Shown here: positions 6,305 to 17,965 of the stretch, piece by piece
Numbering within the stretch: position 1 is the stretch's first letter
Layout: each line of letters opens with the position of its first letter
Source: Rhodohalobacter barkolensis
GTDB taxonomy: Bacteria; Bacteroidota; Rhodothermia; Balneolales; Balneolaceae
Reading direction: 5' to 3'
NCBI RefSeq assembly: GCF_002834295.1
Contig: NZ_PISP01000004.1
Location: 1-64,000 of the forward strand
DNA length: 64,000 nucleotides
Program-made: the position numbers and the translations under genes
The notes under the pieces: generated by a model
The model's database searches: none
The model's input: the letters and a program-made list of their open reading frames with translations, nothing else
Told to the model about the DNA's origin: nothing

Positions 6305-9300
6305 TTGAGCAGCCAAAAAAAATACTTCCTGAAGTTCAGCTTATTTAGCTTTGTACTTCTACTTGCATTTTTAGTTCTGTTCGAAGTGACTCTATGGCCG
6401 GGTCAAACCATTCAAGAGGATGAACTTACCGATCAAATCCAACTCAGTTTAGATCAGGCAGAGCAACATTTTGACAATACCTATCGGGAGTTCCGGAACC
6501 GCTCTGATGAACTTTACAGTGAAATTTCCCAGCTCCCCTTAACCGAACAAAATAAACCGGCCATCTTTAACCGGTTGAAAAGTCACACATTTTGGGGTTC
6601 TGCACTTCATAAAGAGAATGACAAATGGGTTTGGGATGGATTTAGCTTAACGCCATCCCCTACACTAACAAACGGAACATCTGATTCACTTTTGGTAACA
6701 TTGCTCAAACGAAACAATGTTGTGTACCTGTTTGGGCAAAGGGCATTTTCTGTTAACGAGGGCAGATACCTACTTCTCACTGCCGAAAAAATTGAACAAA
6801 CCACAAACCTGCCTTTTGCTGATAAAGTATCTTATCACCTTTCAGATTCGCCGGAATTAGAGAATAATTTTCCGGTAACTTTTAATTTTTTCTCCCCATT
6901 TCCTGATCATCTTCCCTACATAAACCTGGCTACGGAAATGTCTGATTCTGTAGGTACCGTCTATGCGAACCCTGCTGACTACGGCAATTACCGGCAGAAT
7001 TTGACTGAGAATCTAACTGAATGGAGAGCTTCGATCCTTCTGCTATTAGCTCTTTCGCTGGTCATGGTATTCACCGCATTCTGTATCCATTCAAACAGAC
7101 TTGCAATCATCCGCATTCTTATTCTGCTACCCCTTCTGCTTTGGATTCTGTTTTTTGAGTTCAATCTTCTTTCCGATTGGATCTATCCGGAGTTATTGCC
7201 AAAGCTTTGGCAGGCCGATTCCTATCGAATACTGGCTGAATATATAGTGCATGCCTTTTTTCTGTCTCTGACGCTGATCCCGCTATCTCGATACGTTTTA
7301 TTAACAAATATAAAATCGAGCGAGGATTCGCATTTAAAAACGCTGTTGCTGGCTTCACTTTTTGGCGCGGGGTCAGCCGTGCTTATTCTTTTTTTATTCG
7401 ATCAAACCGAAAAGGTTCTTATTGAAACGCCTCTTTCACTACTTGACCTGGAACTGGCTCCGGAGATTTCCGTATTTATATTCTATATCTCATCTGCCAT
7501 TTTCTTTACGGCAATATCCGGCATAATAATCAGCGCCGGACTTTACCTCTATCGTTTTGAAGTGGATAAATCTGTCGTTATTGGAACCACTTCCCTTTTT
7601 AGTTTCCTGCTTTTCTATTTTTTACTTGATCTTCTGTTAGATTTGCAATCACTATTTACACCCATTTTTATAGCCGGATTTGTGCTCTTTATCACTCTGC
7701 TTTTCCTGATTCATTTCATTCATGAGCGAACCGATCATTTCCTCGACATGTCCGGATTCAGAAAAGTGTTGCTATCTGTTTTTTTGATAACAGCTACATT
7801 CTATTTCTTAATATGGAGTTCATCCAGTAGGATATTGGATCGGCAGCTGACCGAATCTGCAAATAATTTTGCAAATGAAGAGATCGCCAATACTCAGGAA
7901 ATACTTGAAATACTCCTCTCTGATCTGGAAAGCTCTCTGATCTTTCTTACATCAGAAGATATTGCCGAACGCAGGGCTATACTTCAGGCACAATTTCAGC
8001 GTGCCATTCAAAACAGTATCCGTCCGGAGTGGAGGGAACACTCATTTGAAATTCAACTTCTCACTACGGATGGAAATCTAATCAGCGATTATTCAACCAA
8101 TCTTGATTCACCGGGTTGGCGATCTCTGGTCAATATGACGTTAATGAGAACTTCTTACGAAGGAGAACAACTTCGGAGGGTAACAAATCAACCTATCATA
8201 TGGAGCAACCGACCCACAGATCTTGGAGAAGAATTTATCTCATTCTACCGCGGTTGGATCCCCATTTACGATGAGGTCAGTTCTAATGAAATCATCGCAT
8301 GGATTTTTGCAGCTGCATATCTCGAGCGTCCAGATTTTAACCGGCCGATGAGAGCCGTTTTATCCGCCGATACTGAACAGAATTGGAAACAGAGTCTCTA
8401 TATTGCCGAATTTATTGATGGTAAGGTTAATCGTACTGCAATGGAGGGAATTTACGATAATCAGCCACAGTATAACCGTTTACCCACGAGAGAAGCTGAA
8501 ATCTCAAATCGTGACTCTGTGGCCTTCATTACCAATGTAACCCCACAGGGACAGTTTCGCGAAATCTTAATCAAACAGAATGACAACACGGTTATTAAAG
8601 CCAGCTCTCCCTTGCCCGGTTTCAATCAGCATTTGTTTTCATTCTTCAGATATCAGATCGTTTTGATCTTTTTTGGACTCTTCTTATTTGCAATTTTCTC
8701 TACTGTAGGGTTTAGAATTTTCAGGCTTTTTGGACAGAGTCGAAAGTTTAAGCACCGGCTTCTGGACGGACTTACTTTAGCAACCATCTTATTTTTGACT
8801 GTTTTAATTTTTGCAACCCAGCATTCTGTAAGCCTGCAAAATGAGAAGAATGTTGAACGGGAATTGATTACTAAACTAAATAGCCTCGGGGAATCCATGC
8901 GGGGAGAATTTCAGGAGTCGAGATCCAGAAATTCGCGTCTGGCTGAGTTTGCATCACCCCTTAATGTAGATGCTATTCTTTACAGCCAGGCCAATGTATT
9001 AGATTCTACAACACCTCAAATTTTTCAGCAGTATGTGATCCCTCGAACGATGCCATTTGATGTCTTCGATTTTTTATACAACAGAGAACGGAGACACTAT
9101 ACGACCACTACAGAAGTAGCCAATCAACAACTTTTAATTGGCTACCGAACTCTTTTAGATGAAGATAATCAGCCGGCAGGTGCTGTAGCCATTCCAACAT
9201 TTGTAGAGTCTCCGGTTTACAGGGAACAGCTTTTAGAAGCTACAAGCTCACTATTCGTGATCTATTTAGCCATCTTTGGAGTCTTTATCATCGGTACTGT

Positions 9301-10159
9301 AATCTTATCAAATCGCCTGACCAAACCACTTCAAATTATTCAGGGTGGTTTGAATAAAATTTCAAGAGGTGAAATGAATACCCGGGTAGCCGTAACCGGC
9401 AAAGATGAGATTGGCACGTTAGCTAAAGCATATAATGAAATGGCCGAACGGCTTGAAACAGCCCGAAAAGAGCTTGTCAAAGCCGAACGCGAAGCCGCCT
9501 GGAAAGAGATGGCCCAGCAGGTTGCTCATGAGATTAAAAATCCGCTCACTCCGATGAAACTTAATCTCCAGCACCTTCAGCAGAGATTGGAAGCTAATCC
9601 TGAAAATGTGATGGAGCTGAAGCCTGTCATCGAAAAAACAGCCCGGAATATTATAGAGCAGATTGAATCATTAAATAAAATTGCATCAGACTTTTCCAAG
9701 TTTGCCAAACCCGTACAGGATCCATTTGAACCGGTTGACCTGAAAAAACTATTAGCCTCCATTGTTGAACTCTACAGTCATGATGAATCTGTTAAAATCG
9801 AACATGAATTAAATGGTAGTGATTTAATCATTAGCGGAGTAGAAGGTGAACTTCGAAGGGTTTTCGTCAACTTGGTTAAAAATGGAATTGAAGCACACTC
9901 AAATGGTCATGCCAAAATTCAGATCAGTGCAAATAAAATGAATCGATTCATCAAAGTTCAGATTTCTGACAACGGGGAAGGCATTGACCTTGAAGACCGA
10001 GACCGAATATTTGTGCCCAACTTTTCTACGAAATCGAGCGGAACGGGACTCGGTTTAGCAATTACCAAAAAAATTGTTGAAGCCCATAAAGGGGACATCA
10101 CTTTTGATTCTGAGTCGGGCAAAGGCACAACATTCACCCTTACTTTTCCCGCATATTAA
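6305..10159 (+). CDS. Very large NtrY-like sensor histidine kinase
   Basis: Membrane sensor kinase of 1284 residues, about twice a typical kinase. The start is TTG at 6305. A first membrane segment (about 8-27) is followed by an extracytoplasmic domain to about 235, then a block of roughly seven membrane helices (about 240-500), a second extracytoplasmic domain (about 505-780), one helix, a third region, and a final helix near 980. The cytoplasmic part has HAMP (about 1002-1055), a HisKA H-box AHEIKNPLTPMKLNLQ (His1075) and HATPase_c with DNGEGI and GTGLGLAITKKIVEAH. The kinase core resembles NtrY. No response regulator is adjacent, so the partner is unknown. It may be co-transcribed with rsfS. 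Confidence 0.9.
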   Translation: MSSQKKYFLKFSLFSFVLLLAFLVLFEVTLWPGQTIQEDELTDQIQLSLDQAEQHFDNTYREFRNRSDELYSEISQLPLTEQNKPAIFNRLKSHTFWGSALHKENDKWVWDGFSLTPSPTLTNGTSDSLLVTLLKRNNVVYLFGQRAFSVNEGRYLLLTAEKIEQTTNLPFADKVSYHLSDSPELENNFPVTFNFFSPFPDHLPYINLATEMSDSVGTVYANPADYGNYRQNLTENLTEWRASILLLLALSLVMVFTAFCIHSNRLAIIRILILLPLLLWILFFEFNLLSDWIYPELLPKLWQADSYRILAEYIVHAFFLSLTLIPLSRYVLLTNIKSSEDSHLKTLLLASLFGAGSAVLILFLFDQTEKVLIETPLSLLDLELAPEISVFIFYISSAIFFTAISGIIISAGLYLYRFEVDKSVVIGTTSLFSFLLFYFLLDLLLDLQSLFTPIFIAGFVLFITLLFLIHFIHERTDHFLDMSGFRKVLLSVFLITATFYFLIWSSSSRILDRQLTESANNFANEEIANTQEILEILLSDLESSLIFLTSEDIAERRAILQAQFQRAIQNSIRPEWREHSFEIQLLTTDGNLISDYSTNLDSPGWRSLVNMTLMRTSYEGEQLRRVTNQPIIWSNRPTDLGEEFISFYRGWIPIYDEVSSNEIIAWIFAAAYLERPDFNRPMRAVLSADTEQNWKQSLYIAEFIDGKVNRTAMEGIYDNQPQYNRLPTREAEISNRDSVAFITNVTPQGQFREILIKQNDNTVIKASSPLPGFNQHLFSFFRYQIVLIFFGLFLFAIFSTVGFRIFRLFGQSRKFKHRLLDGLTLATILFLTVLIFATQHSVSLQNEKNVERELITKLNSLGESMRGEFQESRSRNSRLAEFASPLNVDAILYSQANVLDSTTPQIFQQYVIPRTMPFDVFDFLYNRERRHYTTTTEVANQQLLIGYRTLLDEDNQPAGAVAIPTFVESPVYREQLLEATSSLFVIYLAIFGVFIIGTVILSNRLTKPLQIIQGGLNKISRGEMNTRVAVTGKDEIGTLAKAYNEMAERLETARKELVKAEREAAWKEMAQQVAHEIKNPLTPMKLNLQHLQQRLEANPENVMELKPVIEKTARNIIEQIESLNKIASDFSKFAKPVQDPFEPVDLKKLLASIVELYSHDESVKIEHELNGSDLIISGVEGELRRVFVNLVKNGIEAHSNGHAKIQISANKMNRFIKVQISDNGEGIDLEDRDRIFVPNFSTKSSGTGLGLAITKKIVEAHKGDITFDSESGKGTTFTLTFPAY

Positions 10160-10232: not shown

Positions 10233-11606
10233 ATGGATACGAATCAACCAACATATCGAACAGACATACGCCAGGAGCTTTCGTCTTTGCTAAAAATTGG
10301 TGTGCCTGTCATCATCACACAGCTTCTTCAAATGAGCATGAGTTTTGTGGATACCGTGATGGCAGGACGACTCTCTCCGGAAGATCTTGCCGCTGTTGCC
10401 GTAGGGTCCAGTACCTTAATGCCATTTGTTGTTCTCTGTCTTGGCTGCATGATGGCGGTCACTCCCATCGTTGCACAAAATGTTGGCGGACGTAATTTTA
10501 AGCTGATCGGCAAAAATGCCAGGCAGGTTCTCTGGCTGAGCCTGATCCTGGCTATTCCCAGCTTTTTCCTTTTGCGAAATCTTGATTTTATTCTCGTATT
10601 AATTGGTATCACGGATGAAATTATCCCCATCGCATCCGGTTATCTGAAAGCGATCGCCTGGGGAATTTTTCCTGCTTATGCGTTTGGAGCTCTCAGGTAT
10701 TTTAATGAAGGGTTAAGTGTAACCCGTCCGGCCATGTTTATTGCCGTAATCGGACTGTTGGTTAACATTCCGGCAAACTATGTGCTGATGTTTGGAAAAT
10801 TCGGCTTCCCTCAGCTTGGAGCGATAGGAACCGGCTACGCTTCGGCCATTGTTTTTACAGTCATGTTCATCGCCATGTTGTGGTTTACTGTAGGGTTTGA
10901 AGCGTACAAACGGTTCGATATTTTCGGCAAGTTCCGCTGGCCTGAAAAGAAATATTTGAAAGAGCTCCTCAGCATTGGAGTCCCCATCGGTATCAGTTCA
11001 ACGATGGAGGTCACCATGTTTGCTGTGGTGAGCCTGTTGGTTGGAACCATCAGTACGGTAGCCGTTGCCGGACACCAGGTGGCGATCAATTTTGCCTCCA
11101 TGACCTTTATGATACCCTTCGGACTTTCCGTTGCTATCTCGGCAAGAGTCGGCCAGTCCATTGGACGAAAACGTCCCAATGAAGCGCGATTCAGAGGATA
11201 TGTTGGAGTGGGGCTGGCCAGTACTATTATGGCATTCACTGCCATGACTATGTTTCTGTTTCCGGAATATATTACCGGAATCTACACCGATGACAGAGCT
11301 GTAACAGATGTTGCCGTTCAGCTACTCTTTATGGCGGCCATTTTTCAGTTGTCGGATGGACTACAGGTAAGCGGTTTTGGAGCACTGCGCGGTTTAAAAG
11401 ATACCAAAGTGCCTATGTATGTCAATTTAATTGCATACTGGGTAATCGGTATTCCACTAGCATACTATCTCGGATTTATTGCAGAGTACGGCGCCCAAGG
11501 ACTGTGGGGAGGCTTGATTGCCGGACTAACCGTGGCTGGAATTTTGCACAACATCCGTTTCTACAGAAAGACAAAGGCGTTGGAAAACAGTGCAGTTAAA
11601 ATCTAA
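10233..11606 (+). CDS. MATE family efflux transporter
   Basis: A 457-residue inner-membrane protein with about 12 hydrophobic segments, which is the MATE length and topology. The N-terminal half shows IGVPVIITQLLQMSMSFVDTVMAG, the classic MATE start, and the second half repeats it as SIGVPIGISSTMEVTMFAVV. Family members export cationic drugs, dyes or metabolites in exchange for Na+ or H+. The substrate cannot be read here. The gene stands alone and converges with the downstream minus-strand gene, overlapping it by 11 bases at the 3' ends. Confidence 0.95.
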   Translation: MDTNQPTYRTDIRQELSSLLKIGVPVIITQLLQMSMSFVDTVMAGRLSPEDLAAVAVGSSTLMPFVVLCLGCMMAVTPIVAQNVGGRNFKLIGKNARQVLWLSLILAIPSFFLLRNLDFILVLIGITDEIIPIASGYLKAIAWGIFPAYAFGALRYFNEGLSVTRPAMFIAVIGLLVNIPANYVLMFGKFGFPQLGAIGTGYASAIVFTVMFIAMLWFTVGFEAYKRFDIFGKFRWPEKKYLKELLSIGVPIGISSTMEVTMFAVVSLLVGTISTVAVAGHQVAINFASMTFMIPFGLSVAISARVGQSIGRKRPNEARFRGYVGVGLASTIMAFTAMTMFLFPEYITGIYTDDRAVTDVAVQLLFMAAIFQLSDGLQVSGFGALRGLKDTKVPMYVNLIAYWVIGIPLAYYLGFIAEYGAQGLWGGLIAGLTVAGILHNIRFYRKTKALENSAVKI

Positions 11607-12255
11607 CCGGAGAGAATCCACCGGTAAGATTAAACTGTAAACCAAACATTACTGCCGGTCTTCCCAATACCCCCATTTCATCTAGCCCGGGGAACCAGTA
11701 ATACCTGCCACCTGCGTTGGTAAAAAGAGATACCCTCTCGGTAAAGTGATAGATCGCTCCAAATTCTGTTGTGGCAGTCACTCCCGGAAAAAATTGTGTG
11801 CTTACATTATCAAAAATACCACGTCCGGCCACACCAAAACCCGGTGATATTCTAAAATAGATCTCCAACTTTGTACTTCCGGATAAATTGGTGAACTCTG
11901 ATATCGAAAAATTTCGGCCAACGTTAAGGGCGCCAATCAGCAGATTATCATCTCGGAATTCGGAATTGCCAGCCTCATAATAGGCTGAAAGGGAAAAGCC
12001 GAGATCGGCACGCGCTCCCGGCTGTCTGTATATTGATTCAAAACCCAACATTCCCTTCCCTATAACCAAACCATTCAGTGAATGATAATTTCCACGATCA
12101 GTCATTTGATAAGCCTGTACACCTGCTGCCGGACTAAGGATGATTGATTCTTCTGATTTTTCATCATCTGCGTGGTCTGACTGACTCTGCGCTGTACCCG
12201 CAAACGGTAAGACGGAAATCAACAAAATAAAAAGTGTGAGGAATCGGATTTTCAT
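11596..12255 (-). CDS. Hypothetical outer-membrane beta-barrel-like protein
   Basis: No named family recognised. The ATG at 12255 gives MKIRFLTLFILLISVLPFAG, a signal peptide cleaved near GTAQS; GTG at 12270 and ATG at 12261 are alternative starts. After an acidic linker (HADDEKSEES), the 200-residue mature part shows alternating aromatic strands and ends in a phenylalanine-type beta signal (GGFSPVRF), as expected for a small outer-membrane barrel. It ends 11 bases inside the 3' end of the MATE gene on the other strand. Its role is unknown. Confidence 0.75.
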   Translation of the reverse strand: MKIRFLTLFILLISVLPFAGTAQSQSDHADDEKSEESIILSPAAGVQAYQMTDRGNYHSLNGLVIGKGMLGFESIYRQPGARADLGFSLSAYYEAGNSEFRDDNLLIGALNVGRNFSISEFTNLSGSTKLEIYFRISPGFGVAGRGIFDNVSTQFFPGVTATTEFGAIYHFTERVSLFTNAGGRYYWFPGLDEMGVLGRPAVMFGLQFNLTGGFSPVRF

Positions 12256-12404
12256 AATCATACACTCCACATTTTTTTCTACTGATTATAACAATTTAAA
12301 ATAGTGATTTTACAAATTTCAAACATCACATGGTGATGCGAGTGAACGAATTACACACGGCATCAGGTTGATAGTACTAACACGATTCCATAAAAACTCA
12401 CTGT

Positions 12405-13502
12405 ATGTCTGCTTACATCCAAACTATTCAAACCGCAGTACCACAATTTTCTTATCAGCAAAATGAACTGCGAGATAGGATGAAAGAGATTGTGCCTGGC
12501 AGTGAGCGGGATGAACGGATCATTCATCACATCTACAGTCGGTCAGGCATCAGCACACGTTACTCTGTTGTAGACGATTTCCGCAAAACGGCGAATCACC
12601 GGCTTTTTTTTAATGGTCAGGGAGCATCTCCCGGTACTGCCAGCCGAAATGACACTTACACTCGTGAAGGACGAAAACTGTTTATTGAAGTCGCTCATAA
12701 ACTTTTAGATCAATCAGAATTTGATGCAGACGACATTACACATCTGATCACCGTATCCTGCACCGGATTCTACGCGCCTGGACCGGATTATGACATCATT
12801 AAATCGTTAGGATTGTCCCCAAAAACAGAGAGATACCATCTTGGTTTTATGGGCTGTTATGCCGCAATTCCTGCTCTTAAAATGGCTGATCAGTTCTGTC
12901 AGGCAAATCCTGAGGCTAACGTAATGGTTGTTTCTGTAGAACTCTGTACACTACATTTTCAAGCCAATCCCAAAATGGATGATCTGCTATCGGCCTCCGT
13001 ATTTGCAGACGGAGGGGCCGGAGCGATTGTAAGTAGCCGTAAACCTGAAAATACTGCATATCAAGTCGACGGTTTTGCTTCTGCAGTCACTGAAAAGGGC
13101 AAAGAGGATATGGCGTGGTCTATTGGCGACACAGGATTTAATATGGTTCTTTCAAGCTACATTCCGGACCTTTTGGAGGAAGGACTGCATCCCTTTTTAG
13201 ACCCGGTTCTTGAGCAATACGAATTAACTCTAAGTGATATCGACTTGTGGGGAGTTCATCCGGGCGGGCGAGCCATTTTGGACAAAGTTGAAAAAACTTT
13301 TTCACTGCCGTCTGACTCACTTGCAGCATCCAGAAACGTGCTGTCTAATTATGGAAATATGAGCAGTGCTACGGTTCTCTATGTACTAAAAGAGCTTCTG
13401 GATCAGAACTTGGAAGCTAAAAACCAACGGACATTGGCAATGGCCTTTGGTCCGGGCTTAACGCTTGAGTCCGCACTCCTTACAAAAGTTACCAGCCACT
13501 GA
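12405..13502 (+). CDS. Type III polyketide synthase (chalcone synthase-like)
   Basis: Homodimeric ketosynthase that extends an acyl-CoA starter with malonyl-CoA and cyclises the product. 365 residues. The catalytic triad is in place: Cys119 in VSCTGFYAPGPDYD, His285 in LWGVHPGGRAI and Asn318 in SNYGNMSSATV. A second family segment is HLGFMGCYAAIPALK. The stop TGA at 13500-13502 overlaps the ATG of the methyltransferase, and that gene overlaps the FAD monooxygenase by 4 bases, so the three are translationally coupled. Synthase-methyltransferase-monooxygenase is the layout of srsABC in Streptomyces griseus, which makes methylated phenolic lipids. That product class is inferred. The starter unit cannot be read from sequence. 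Confidence 0.95.
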   Translation: MSAYIQTIQTAVPQFSYQQNELRDRMKEIVPGSERDERIIHHIYSRSGISTRYSVVDDFRKTANHRLFFNGQGASPGTASRNDTYTREGRKLFIEVAHKLLDQSEFDADDITHLITVSCTGFYAPGPDYDIIKSLGLSPKTERYHLGFMGCYAAIPALKMADQFCQANPEANVMVVSVELCTLHFQANPKMDDLLSASVFADGGAGAIVSSRKPENTAYQVDGFASAVTEKGKEDMAWSIGDTGFNMVLSSYIPDLLEEGLHPFLDPVLEQYELTLSDIDLWGVHPGGRAILDKVEKTFSLPSDSLAASRNVLSNYGNMSSATVLYVLKELLDQNLEAKNQRTLAMAFGPGLTLESALLTKVTSH

Positions 13503-14206
13503 TGCCAATTTTTCTAAAGCATCGAAATGAACAATTAACCGAGTGGATGGATCACCCGGACTGCGATAAGCAACTGCTTTTCAATACCTATCGCCAATTT
13601 GGCCCCTTGAACCGATTACTGTCCGGTTGGAAAGATATTTTTTACTCCTTCCTGAAACCGGTAATTCAGGATATTGACGGCACGACAACAGTCCTTGATA
13701 TCGGGTGTGGCGGAGGTGATGTAATCTGGTTTCTAAATCAACTCTGCAAAGAAGAGAATCTTGATGTTCAATTTACAGGTATCGATCCGGACTCCAGAGC
13801 GCATGAATATTCAAAAAAGATGGACTGGGATGATAATATTCAGCTATTGTCAGCTCGAACAGATACGCTGATTCAGAATGGAGAATCTTATGATATCGTT
13901 ATCTCAAACCATTTGATGCATCATTTGAGTATTGATGAGCTAGTCAACATTAGCCGAGACGCAGAAAAATTAAGCCACCGTCTCGTGATATTTAACGACA
14001 TTGAACGAAGTGATATAGGCTATGGACTGTTCTCAATCTCAGCCCCCTTGATATTCCGTAACAGTTTTATCAGCCGGGATGGAAAACTATCTATTCGCCG
14101 AAGTTTCAGAAAAAGCGAACTGCAGTCAATTTTACCCGAGCCCTGGAAAGTGGAAAGAAAGTTCCCATTTCGTTTACTGGCAATGGTTCAAACAAGTACT
14201 GAATGA
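13502..14206 (+). CDS. SAM-dependent methyltransferase of the polyketide operon
   Basis: Class I methyltransferase of 234 residues. Motif I is VLDIGCGGGDVIWFL (about residues 61-75), the acidic end of strand 2 is FTGIDPDS, and motif IV is YDIVISNHLMHHL. It starts inside the stop codon of the type III polyketide synthase and ends over the start of the FAD monooxygenase. By analogy with SrsB it probably methylates the resorcinolic or pyrone ring made by the synthase. Whether it is a C- or O-methyltransferase cannot be told. Not enough divergence is visible to suggest a UbiE/menaquinone role. Confidence 0.9.
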   Translation: MPIFLKHRNEQLTEWMDHPDCDKQLLFNTYRQFGPLNRLLSGWKDIFYSFLKPVIQDIDGTTTVLDIGCGGGDVIWFLNQLCKEENLDVQFTGIDPDSRAHEYSKKMDWDDNIQLLSARTDTLIQNGESYDIVISNHLMHHLSIDELVNISRDAEKLSHRLVIFNDIERSDIGYGLFSISAPLIFRNSFISRDGKLSIRRSFRKSELQSILPEPWKVERKFPFRLLAMVQTSTE

Positions 14207-15363
14207 GTAATTCTGAATTAGATATTGTAATTGTCGGTGGCGGACCGGTAGGTCTTTATCTTGCCGGTAGACTGCTACAAAGTGGTTTTCATTGTAAAGT
14301 ATTGGAAAAGAGATCCACCATTGATCACCATTCTAAATCTCTCGGCATCCACCCTGTTTCTCTCGATATTTTTGATAAAGCAGGAATCTCAAAATCTTTT
14401 CTTGAGCATGGGCTGAAAATTAAATCAGGTGTTGCTTTCTGGAACCGGGAGGAAATTGGAGAGGTCTCATTTGAATATTGTCCTCCGCCTCACAATTACA
14501 TCTTAGCCATTCCGCAGTGGAAGACGGAAGAAATATTGGAGGAATGGATCAGGAGTCTCAATGAAGAGTGCCTCATCCGAGGTGCCGATGTTAAACAGGT
14601 CAATCAAGACCGGTATAGGGTTGAAGTTGATTACCTTAAGAATGGCGAAACCAACAAAATAACAGCTTCTTACGTGATCGGCTGTGACGGTATTCAAAGC
14701 CACACCCGGAAAAGTGCTCAAATTCCTTTTGAGGGCAGTTCCTATCCGGATACATACATCATGGGCGATTTTGACGATAATACCGATTTTGGCGAAAAAG
14801 CTGCCGTCTATCTCCACAAAGGCGGACTGGTTGAATCTTTTCCTCTTCCAAACGGACATCGTCGCTGGGTTGTGAAAACCGATCGGTACATTGAAACGTC
14901 GAATCCGGATCTGATCACTGAGCTTGTTTTTAAACGAACCGGTTTTCACTTATCCGAAACAGATCATTATATGTTGAGCAGCTTTGGCGTACAGCATCTT
15001 TTAGCCAAATCCTTTCATAAAAACAGGATACTTCTTGCCGGCGACGCTGCGCATGTTGTCAGCCCAATTGGCGGGCAAGGAATGAACCTGGGCTGGCTCG
15101 ATGCAGAGGAGTGTCTGAACACACTCATGAAAATAAAGAAGCAACCTGTAAAAAAAGAGTTTTTCTTAAATCAATATTCTGATACTCAGCGTAAAATTGC
15201 TAAACAGGTTGCCAAGCGAGCCGAAATGAATATGCATCTTGGCCGTGCGGAAACAAAAAACCTGTCTTACAAAACCGGGATGAATTTGATAATCAACTCT
15301 CCTTTTAATCGGCTATTGGCCAATTTATTCACAATGAGGGGTTTAGGGAGATGGCCAATCTGA
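14203..15363 (+). CDS. FAD-dependent aromatic monooxygenase of the polyketide operon
   Basis: Flavoprotein hydroxylase of the UbiH/p-hydroxybenzoate hydroxylase group, 386 residues. The N-terminal Rossmann motif is VIVGGGPVGLYLAGRLLQSG (about residues 7-26). The mid-protein DG motif is VIGCDGIQSHTRK, and the FAD-ribityl motif is ILLAGDAAHVVSPIGGQGMN (about 276-295). It overlaps the methyltransferase by 4 bases (ATGA). As third gene after a type III polyketide synthase it probably hydroxylates the aromatic lipid towards a hydroquinone or quinone, as SrsC does. That step is inferred. It converges with the next gene with a 4-base gap. Confidence 0.93.
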   Translation: MSNSELDIVIVGGGPVGLYLAGRLLQSGFHCKVLEKRSTIDHHSKSLGIHPVSLDIFDKAGISKSFLEHGLKIKSGVAFWNREEIGEVSFEYCPPPHNYILAIPQWKTEEILEEWIRSLNEECLIRGADVKQVNQDRYRVEVDYLKNGETNKITASYVIGCDGIQSHTRKSAQIPFEGSSYPDTYIMGDFDDNTDFGEKAAVYLHKGGLVESFPLPNGHRRWVVKTDRYIETSNPDLITELVFKRTGFHLSETDHYMLSSFGVQHLLAKSFHKNRILLAGDAAHVVSPIGGQGMNLGWLDAEECLNTLMKIKKQPVKKEFFLNQYSDTQRKIAKQVAKRAEMNMHLGRAETKNLSYKTGMNLIINSPFNRLLANLFTMRGLGRWPI

Positions 15364-15367
15364 TTTA

Positions 15368-16540
15368 TTAAACGGGAAACGTGATTCTAAATCTTGTTCC
15401 CTCAGTACTTTCGGTATTGACTGTTGCCTTCAATTTTTTCAATAGTTCTTCAACAATCCACATTCCAATCGACTCTCTCTTTTCAAACTGGAAATCTTCC
15501 GGTAATCCGACACCATTATCAGACACTTCGAGGAGTGCTTCACCATTCAGTTTCTTTAAGGTTATCTCAATTTGCCCCTCTCCATCATCTTCAATAAAGG
15601 CATGTTTGTAGATATTGATTAGAAGCTCATTCAGAATCAGACCGCAAAGGAGTGCCTGATCTTGCCTTACTTCAATTTTTTCGCTCTTCAGTTCGAGTTT
15701 AACATTGTATAGAATAGAACTCATCGTCTCTTCTATCGTCTGCGATAGCTGCTTCAGATATTTTCCAAGTTCGACTCTGTTGCTCAGATTTTTCTCACTA
15801 AGCATTTCGTGAAGCTTTGCCATCGAACGAATTCTGTGGCCAACATCATCCAAAACATCTTTTGCCTTGCTCTTTTCAAGATCCAACGACTCGTTCTCAA
15901 CAATTGAAAGAATTACCTGTAGGTTATTTTTGATTCGATGATGAATCTCGGCGATCAAGGTGTCCTTCTGTTTCAATCGTTCATGGAGTCTGTCGATGAG
16001 CCGGGTCCGTTCAATTGCACACGTAACATGAGAGGCCAATGCCTGCATCACAGGGATATCCCGGGATGTAAATTCATGATTATCCCGGCGGTTCAGTGCC
16101 TGCATCACCCCAATCACTTTGTTCTCACGGTTTATTAAAGGCACGCAGATAATATTCCGTGTTTTAAAACCTTCGGCCAGTTCACCGTAAAAATGTTCGG
16201 ATTCGGCGGGGTTATTCGTCAGATAAGGCCTTTTTTGCGATACAACCCATCCCGCAATCCCCTGATCTTTTGGAATGCGTTTTCCTGCAATATCATATTT
16301 TACCGGACCGGTTGGCATACTTACGTGCAACTCTCCGGTTTCCTTATCTTCCAGAATAAGGGTGCTTGCCTCTGAATTCATGACAAGCCGAATAGCCTCC
16401 ATACTTTCAATCAAGACCGATTTAAACTCTTTGGTTTGATTGATCCCTTCTATCGTATCAAGTAACAGACGCAGGTTTTTATCCGGCAGTTCCTGCAAAC
16501 CGTCATCCGGATTGATATTGCTTAGTTCTGAAGATTCCAT
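15368..16540 (-). CDS. Soluble GAF-HisKA_2 sensor histidine kinase (first of a pair)
   Basis: Cytoplasmic kinase of 390 residues without membrane segments. The GAF domain spans about residues 25-180, with IAGKRIPKDQGIAGWVV and ICVPLINRENKVIGVMQALN. A HisKA_2 dimerisation domain follows with the phosphoacceptor motif EIHHRIKNNLQVI (near 200), then HATPase_c with GLILNELLINIYKHAF and DNGVGLPEDF. It is a close paralogue of the kinase at 16664-17839, which lies upstream in the same orientation. No response regulator is nearby. The GAF ligand is unknown. The start ATG at 16540 is well placed. Confidence 0.93.
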   Translation of the reverse strand: MESSELSNINPDDGLQELPDKNLRLLLDTIEGINQTKEFKSVLIESMEAIRLVMNSEASTLILEDKETGELHVSMPTGPVKYDIAGKRIPKDQGIAGWVVSQKRPYLTNNPAESEHFYGELAEGFKTRNIICVPLINRENKVIGVMQALNRRDNHEFTSRDIPVMQALASHVTCAIERTRLIDRLHERLKQKDTLIAEIHHRIKNNLQVILSIVENESLDLEKSKAKDVLDDVGHRIRSMAKLHEMLSEKNLSNRVELGKYLKQLSQTIEETMSSILYNVKLELKSEKIEVRQDQALLCGLILNELLINIYKHAFIEDDGEGQIEITLKKLNGEALLEVSDNGVGLPEDFQFEKRESIGMWIVEELLKKLKATVNTESTEGTRFRITFPV

Positions 16541-16663: not shown

Positions 16664-17839
16664 CTATGATTTAAATGTAATGGTAAATCTAGCTCCCGGG
16701 TCATTTAAAATGGTCATCTCAGCGTTCAACTTTTGAAGCAGTTCGTGTACAATCCACATACCGATGTTTTGCTTCGACTCTAGGGTGAAGTTGTCGGGCA
16801 GTCCTATACCATTATCGGCTACACTTAAAATAGCCAGCCCCTCATCATTCGCTACATTGACTTCTATTTTATTCACATTCTTTGTCCCCTCGATGTAGGC
16901 ATGTTTGTATACATTTATGAGAAGCTCGTTTAGAATCAGCCCGCAAAGAAGTGCTTTTGTTTGAGAGATCTTAAACTGACTGCCTGATACATCTACATCA
17001 ATATCCAGCTGGTGGAAACTCATGGAATCTTCAATTTTATCAACCAGGTTTTTGATGTAAGAGTGCAGATCGATATTCTCATTTACTTTTTTCTCTACCA
17101 GCATGTCGTGCAACTTAGACATCGACTTCATTCTGACCTCAACCTTTTTAAACAGGTCTTTAGCCTTCTGATCGGAAATTTCTTTGGTGTCTTTTTGTAT
17201 CTGGTCTGAAAGTGCTTGCAGGTTATTTTTTACCCGGTGATGTATCTCTGCAATCATTACATCTTTTTGATGAATGGTTTCCCGCATCGCATCAATTTTT
17301 CTGGTTCTCTCAATTGCTATGGTGATATGAGTAGCCAGTGCCTCAAAAACCGGCACATCCTCTTCATGATACTCTTCATTATTCCTTCGGTTTAAGGCCT
17401 GAATAACCCCCACAACCTCATCATTACGGTTGATCAGCGGAACGCATATCAAATTTGTAGTTGTAAAATTCTCAACCAAATCACCATAGAAATAGTCCGA
17501 CTTGGTCACATCATTGGTGAAATAAGGTTTTTTATTTTCCAACACCCAACCGGCAATTCCCTTCTCTTTTGGGATACTTTTTCCGGCTACCTCATTTTTG
17601 GCCGGCCCGGTTGGAACACTTATGAAGAGCTCACCCTTTTCATCATCTACAAGCAGCAGTGAACTGGCTTCAGAGTTCATCACCAATCTGGTTGCCTCCA
17701 TACTTTCGAACAACACAGTTTTAAACTCATTTGTATTGTTGATCCCCTCCAGGGTTTCAAGTATAAGTGAGAGATTCTCTTTCTCTAAGTTGTCGTGAAC
17801 ATTCTCACTTTTATCATCTTTATTTTTACCCTTACTCAT
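16664..17839 (-). CDS. Soluble GAF-HisKA_2 sensor histidine kinase (second of a pair)
   Basis: 391 residues from the ATG at 17839 (MSKGKNKDDKSEN). A GTG at 17902 would add 21 residues not shared with the paralogue, so I prefer the ATG. The domain order equals that of its neighbour: GAF (about 30-180; IPKEKGIAGWVLEN, LICVPLINRNDEVVGVIQAL), HisKA_2 (EIHHRVKNNLQAL) and HATPase_c (LLCGLILNELLINVYKHAY, DNGIGLPDNF, NIGMWIVHELL). The two proteins match along their full length, so this is a tandem duplication that has diverged. The gap between them is 123 bases. The partner regulator is not in this window. Confidence 0.93.
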   Translation of the reverse strand: MSKGKNKDDKSENVHDNLEKENLSLILETLEGINNTNEFKTVLFESMEATRLVMNSEASSLLLVDDEKGELFISVPTGPAKNEVAGKSIPKEKGIAGWVLENKKPYFTNDVTKSDYFYGDLVENFTTTNLICVPLINRNDEVVGVIQALNRRNNEEYHEEDVPVFEALATHITIAIERTRKIDAMRETIHQKDVMIAEIHHRVKNNLQALSDQIQKDTKEISDQKAKDLFKKVEVRMKSMSKLHDMLVEKKVNENIDLHSYIKNLVDKIEDSMSFHQLDIDVDVSGSQFKISQTKALLCGLILNELLINVYKHAYIEGTKNVNKIEVNVANDEGLAILSVADNGIGLPDNFTLESKQNIGMWIVHELLQKLNAEMTILNDPGARFTITFKS

Positions 17840-17965
17840 ATTTATTTCAACTATATGTTCCAATTGAGATACATCAAGCACAATTAACAAATTAATAAGC
17901 ACTTTTACATCAAAAAAACAAAACCAACTTAGTTAATACTCCATTCTAAGTCCAAAAAAACGGGA

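Follow-up and report, generated by a model that had tools for sequence, protein, structure and literature searches.

The window, the whole 64,000-nt stretch of Rhodohalobacter barkolensis DNA analysed here (contig NZ_PISP01000004.1, positions 1 to 64,000), carries three overlapping genes on its plus strand:

12405-13502, plus strand, type III polyketide synthase (PKS), 365 aa (Pfam PF00195/PF02797; best solved relatives 4b0n and PKS18)
13502, plus strand, 1-nt stop/start overlap of synthase and methyltransferase (TGATG)
13502-14206, plus strand, class I SAM methyltransferase (MT), 234 aa (PRK06202 family, NCBIfam NF004851; DIGCGGG motif)
14203-14206, plus strand, 4-nt overlap of methyltransferase and monooxygenase (ATGA)
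14203-15363, plus strand, FAD-dependent class A aromatic hydroxylase, 386 aa (PF01494, 191.6 bits)

The best Pfam E-values were 5e-28 for the N- and C-terminal Chal_sti_synt domains of the synthase, 3e-10 for the class I SAM methyltransferase and 3e-56 for FAD_binding_3. Overlaps of 1 and 4 bases between the three genes had been claimed in an earlier note on this DNA; both were found to be exact, with all three reading frames in place on the plus strand. The gene order PKS-MT-FAD was found in every relative within the taxonomic order that has an intact locus, and gaps were mostly 10 nt or less (29 of 32 PKS-MT junctions, 28 of 32 MT-FAD junctions), which indicates that the operon is not a chance arrangement. 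Promoter and terminator scans gave no excess of sites over shuffled sequences.

Alignment to reference synthases located the following residues in the first gene:

12855-12857, plus strand, codon of the catalytic Cys151 (aligns with PKS18 C175; invariant in alignment A1)
13257-13259, plus strand, codon of His285 (aligns with PKS18 H313; invariant in alignment A1)
13356-13358, plus strand, codon of Asn318 (aligns with PKS18 N346; invariant in alignment A1)
12762-12776, plus strand, Thr120 and Ala124, counterparts of the PKS18 tunnel residues T144 and A148
12945-12947, plus strand, Cys181, counterpart of the PKS18 tunnel residue C205
13116-13118, plus strand, codon of Trp238, at the position of ArsB Trp281, ArsC Gly284 and CHS Gly256

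The protein thus combines chalcone-synthase family domains with the full Cys-His-Asn triad (C151-H285-N318 by alignment to PKS18), the marks of a type III PKS. The triad had been noticed before and is borne out; nearly all relatives retain it. Among the relatives T120 and A124 were nearly invariant and C181 was invariant. The solved structures nearest to the window synthase were algal PKS1 (4b0n) and then PKS18 of Mycobacterium tuberculosis, the closest bacterial one. A profile search of the genome found a single type III PKS above cut-off; the other match was weak, below the family cut-off, and is probably a KAS III-type enzyme. Between the window and a genus-mate (G019) the synthase showed a dN of 0.11 and a dS of 2.4, and dS was saturated for the methyltransferase and the monooxygenase.

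ArsB Trp281 and ArsC Gly284 mark the site that decides between resorcinol and pyrone (PMC6274091). Trp238 was placed at this site by the spacing shared by ArsC G284-M293 and CHS G256-F265, together with THNS Tyr224, all of them residues named in that paper. The spacing argument is our own; the reference synthases compared were PKS11, CylI, PKS18, THNS, Steely1 and those of plasmid loci. Trp occupied the position in all relatives examined within the order, in Deinococcus and in most of the wider operon family. Elsewhere the residue was Trp in PKS11, Leu in CylI, PKS18 and algal PKS1, and Tyr in THNS. Trp238 counts as support without being decisive: the alkylpyrone synthase PKS11 carries Trp as well, and in CylI the residue is Leu. 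The window synthase has the aromatic residue at the ArsB-281 position and the open acyl tunnel expected of an ArsB-type alkylresorcinol synthase, a combination that is supportive and insufficient alone. As far as residues can predict a product, the PKS18-type tunnel and Trp238 favour long-chain starters and resorcinol closure. A THNS/RppA-type product is disfavoured by the residues, the THNS signature (Met at A148, Tyr at the Trp238 position) being absent.

The synthase could instead make long-chain alkyl-alpha-pyrones, which the methyltransferase would O-methylate and the flavin enzyme would hydroxylate or oxidise, so that the products would be membrane pyrones and not resorcinols or quinones. 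PKS18 is itself an alkylpyrone synthase that has its triad and the tunnel residues T144/A148/C205 in common with the window synthase, and PKS11 makes pyrones with the same Trp. However, PKS18 and algal PKS1 have Leu where the window has Trp238, a phenol is a more fitting substrate than a pyrone for a PHBH-type hydroxylase, and the planctomycete relatives in a similar operon gave resorcinols. We consider the alkylpyrone product unlikely.

The methyltransferase scored 251.8 bits against PRK06202 (NF004851), above the cut-off of 243, and also matched the class I Pfam domain Methyltransf_25. Its AF2 model (pLDDT 94.8) had a class I fold, with the plantazolicin methyltransferases, Coq5 and the aromatic C-methyltransferases CouO and NovO as neighbours in the PDB. 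The same family stands beside type III PKSs elsewhere, at 301 bits in Deinococcus and at 232 bits, slightly under the cut-off, in Paludisphaera; matches were weaker beside the PKSs of other Bacteroidota and of Alphaproteobacteria. When the synthase and methyltransferase of Gimesia were co-expressed, one methyl group was gained, probably on carbon (PMC10896814). The window methyltransferase would methylate the ring, at either carbon or oxygen.

The FAD protein combines the three motifs of class A flavoprotein aromatic hydroxylases (GxGxxG, DG and GD) with the PHBH fold of that class, and the motifs were conserved across 75 loci. Its AF2 model (pLDDT 90.4) matched PHBH, PnpA (p-nitrophenol 4-monooxygenase), OxyS and MtmOIV at a TM of about 0.8. 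Judged from the modelled fold, phenol hydroxylation is the natural inference for this protein. Outside Balneolaceae, the FAD protein at the equivalent place was only a distant relative in most Bacteroidota, and so was that of the planctomycete (30-60 bits to the family profile), so the set found in Balneolaceae, Deinococcus and Micrococcales forms a subtype of its own.

The earlier note had likened the locus to srsABC of Streptomyces griseus. The likeness held for the order of steps: in both srsABC/PkQ and the window the PKS comes first, the methyltransferase second and the flavin hydroxylase third, in a co-transcribed layout. It did not hold for the identity of the genes: SrsB is reported to be an isoprenylcysteine carboxyl methyltransferase (ICMT) (PMC6669644), a membrane enzyme, whereas the window methyltransferase is of the soluble class I PRK06202 kind. 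In the synthase tree the ICMT-adjacent synthases of Azospirillum and Phyllobacterium plasmids grouped with PKS11, far from the window clade; with PKS11 and these synthases as proxies for SrsA, the window synthase fell outside the SrsA/PKS10/PKS11 clade. A true srsABC/PkQ-type operon, orthologous gene for gene, would explain the common gene order and reaction logic, but the methyltransferase is of the wrong family and the synthase of another clade, which makes such orthology highly improbable.

The hidABC (hierridin) and planctomycete operons likewise share a type III PKS, a methyltransferase and an FAD oxidoreductase with the window. The planctomycete synthases make C15/C17 alkylresorcinols (PMC10896814). 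Here the methyltransferase is of the PRK06202 class I kind, as in the window (251.8 bits); the link was drawn through Paludisphaera, whose 232-bit match stands in for HidA. The Paludisphaera FAD protein, used as a stand-in for HidB, scored 55 bits to PF01494 against 192 for the window protein and 30 bits to the Balneolaceae-Deinococcus profile. The planctomycete operon is arranged MT-FAD-PKS, unlike the window order PKS-MT-FAD, which is found in some cyanobacteria, and the planctomycete synthase fell outside the window synthase clade. On these comparisons the nearest operons appear to be those of Deinococcus plasmids and Micrococcales, the hierridin and planctomycete operons being more distant.

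In the Deinococcus plasmid operons (L093, L094 and L106) the order was the same and homologues occupied all three positions, at about 48/40/37% identity (PKS/MT/FAD). Their synthases share a clade with the window synthase at a support of 99. The Micrococcales operons, found in Arthrobacter, Microbacterium, Agromyces, Leifsonia, Cryobacterium and Clavibacter, also had the same order, and in most loci the PKS, MT and FAD profiles matched over their full length. Unlike the Balneolaceae loci, those of Deinococcus and Micrococcales had no matching conserved MATE or aconitase neighbour, and the Deinococcus copies were plasmid-borne in the records examined whereas the Balneolaceae copy is chromosomal. 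Pairwise distances of the three proteins over 75 loci were correlated at r = 0.81-0.83 (shuffles 0.15 or less). This fits inheritance as one unit, although shared ancestry accounts for part of the correlation. No relative was found in the viral contigs searched.

Three side observations were made among these relatives. In Deinococcus radiophilus an acyl-CoA thioesterase gene lies directly upstream of the plasmid operon (L093, 5434-5859), consistent with an acyl-CoA substrate. Five verrucomicrobial loci (L123, L124, L125, L129 and L138) had close synthases (48-52%) with no matching methyltransferase adjoining, and L138 retains the FAD gene. Two loci of other Bacteroidota (L090 and L091, family f26) had synthases of a separate clade in the order FAD-MT-PKS; these have Phe at the Trp238 position and Pro/Thr at tunnel positions, and their product is probably different.

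NCBI taxonomy places Balneolaceae in the phylum Balneolota. Of 67 Balneolaceae genomes at least 90% complete, 65 had the synthase and 64 the hydroxylase (FAD) gene. The two genes were adjacent by coordinates with few exceptions. In G007 the synthase sits at the end of a contig; in G222 synthase and FAD gene are on separate contigs, and the FAD gene contains stop codons (G222:C16:6617-7696; G222:C12:311345-312490). In the order-wide set of 59 genomes, including that of the window, 56 had the synthase; of the three without it, two were metagenome-assembled genomes, 62-64% complete, and the third was a complete genome (G035). Beyond the order, in the phylum-level group searched, the synthase was patchy.

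The neighbourhood of the operon was conserved as well. Upstream of the synthase in the window lies an exporter gene, 798 nt away:

10233-11606, plus strand, MATE-family (NorM-like) exporter (PF01554, 249 bits; TIGR00797, 338 bits)

A MATE gene was found upstream on the same strand in 26 loci of the relatives. In 16 of the 26 no more than 150 nt separated its stop from the start of the synthase, which gives many relatives the appearance of a four-gene operon; the MATE gene is likely the fourth operon gene there. Between the MATE gene and the synthase, the window encodes a 224-aa protein without a Pfam match (11596-12270, minus strand); genes resembling it occurred at the same place in two relatives only (L034 and L117) among those examined. 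A large sensor kinase upstream of the MATE gene, on the same strand, is conserved across Balneolaceae. In the window it has 1284 aa (6305-10159), with a very long N-terminal region followed by HAMP-HisKA-HATPase. The conserved downstream flank, on the opposite strand, consists of GAF/HisKA_2 kinases and aconitase. Most Balneolaceae have one or two GAF-HisKA_2 kinases in this position, and the window has a tandem paralogous pair convergent with the operon (15368-16540 and 16664-17902, minus strand).

The fixed neighbours, together with a synthase tree that largely tracks taxonomy within Balneolaceae, indicate vertical inheritance. Near-universal presence at one fixed chromosomal place points to a core cell function, that is, a housekeeping role rather than an optional antibiotic-like product, so far as conservation can suggest one. 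This bears on another possible product, a small phenol or pyrone of the phloroglucinol or tetrahydroxynaphthalene type, made from a short starter or from malonyl units only, whose methylated and oxidised form would leave the cell through the MATE protein as a secreted pigment, signal or antibiotic. The exporter conserved upstream would suit such a product, and some type III PKSs of the same fold do yield small ones, but the PKS18 tunnel residues are retained, the THNS signature is lacking, and a single locus fixed in nearly every species of the family would be unusual for a secreted specialised metabolite. A small product therefore seems quite unlikely.

We favour, at a probability of roughly 55%, the reading that the operon is a core lipid-modification pathway of Balneolaceae in which an alkylresorcinol would be methylated and hydroxylated to a quinol or quinone lipid. 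What was observed is the layout of the genes, their enzyme families, the residues of the active site, and the conservation and synteny of the locus. On the rest of the pathway, namely how long the starter is, whether the ring closes to a resorcinol, where the methyl goes, whether a quinone results and what role it has in the cell, we infer the following. The synthase would take a long-chain acyl starter supplied by fatty-acid metabolism and extend it with malonyl-CoA, and the ring would be closed mainly by aldol condensation to give a 5-alkylresorcinol. The class I methyltransferase would then add a methyl group to the ring (C or O), and the PHBH-type flavin monooxygenase would hydroxylate the phenol to an alkyl-hydroquinone, which could become oxidised in the membrane to a benzoquinone. 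Transport or detoxification of the product may fall to the neighbouring MATE exporter. The precedent from planctomycetes, the Gimesia pair, would reach as far as the synthase and methyltransferase steps, the planctomycete FAD protein being only distantly related. The proposal of the earlier note is supported as to a coupled PKS/methyltransferase/monooxygenase operon with an intact triad, most plausibly for phenolic or quinone-type lipids, to the extent that sequence comparison can support a product.

Alkylquinones from an analogous three-step pathway are electron carriers, and respiratory polyketide quinones are found in Actinobacteria (PMC9927152). In the window genome MenA and MenB scored above cut-off, and a profile search for the futalosine marker PF02621 found it absent. 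A polyketide quinone as the sole quinone is ruled out by MenA and MenB; with these present there is no quinone gap to fill, so a redox role would be an additional one.

Type III PKS operons are usually regarded as patchy clusters for specialised metabolites. Among the papers listed by literature searches, none treated type III PKSs of Balneolaceae; new here are the near-universal presence in Balneolaceae, the conserved neighbourhood and the MATE gene upstream. A near-universal, syntenic family trait suggests that the product likely takes part in normal cell physiology, and routine analysis of the lipids of Balneola or Fodinibius cultures should reveal it. We tentatively suggest, as a possibility well short of an even chance, that Balneolaceae, and probably the whole order, may have a core polyketide-quinone lipid, passed on vertically, that would serve alongside menaquinone as a structural lipid or as a second redox carrier of the membrane. 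The set that would make it, of synthase, PRK06202 methyltransferase and phenol hydroxylase, would in addition have spread to Deinococcus and Micrococcales. Should the product prove to be a quinone, the range of respiratory polyketide quinones, shown to date in Actinobacteria, would grow to include a distant phylum and perhaps Deinococcus as well.
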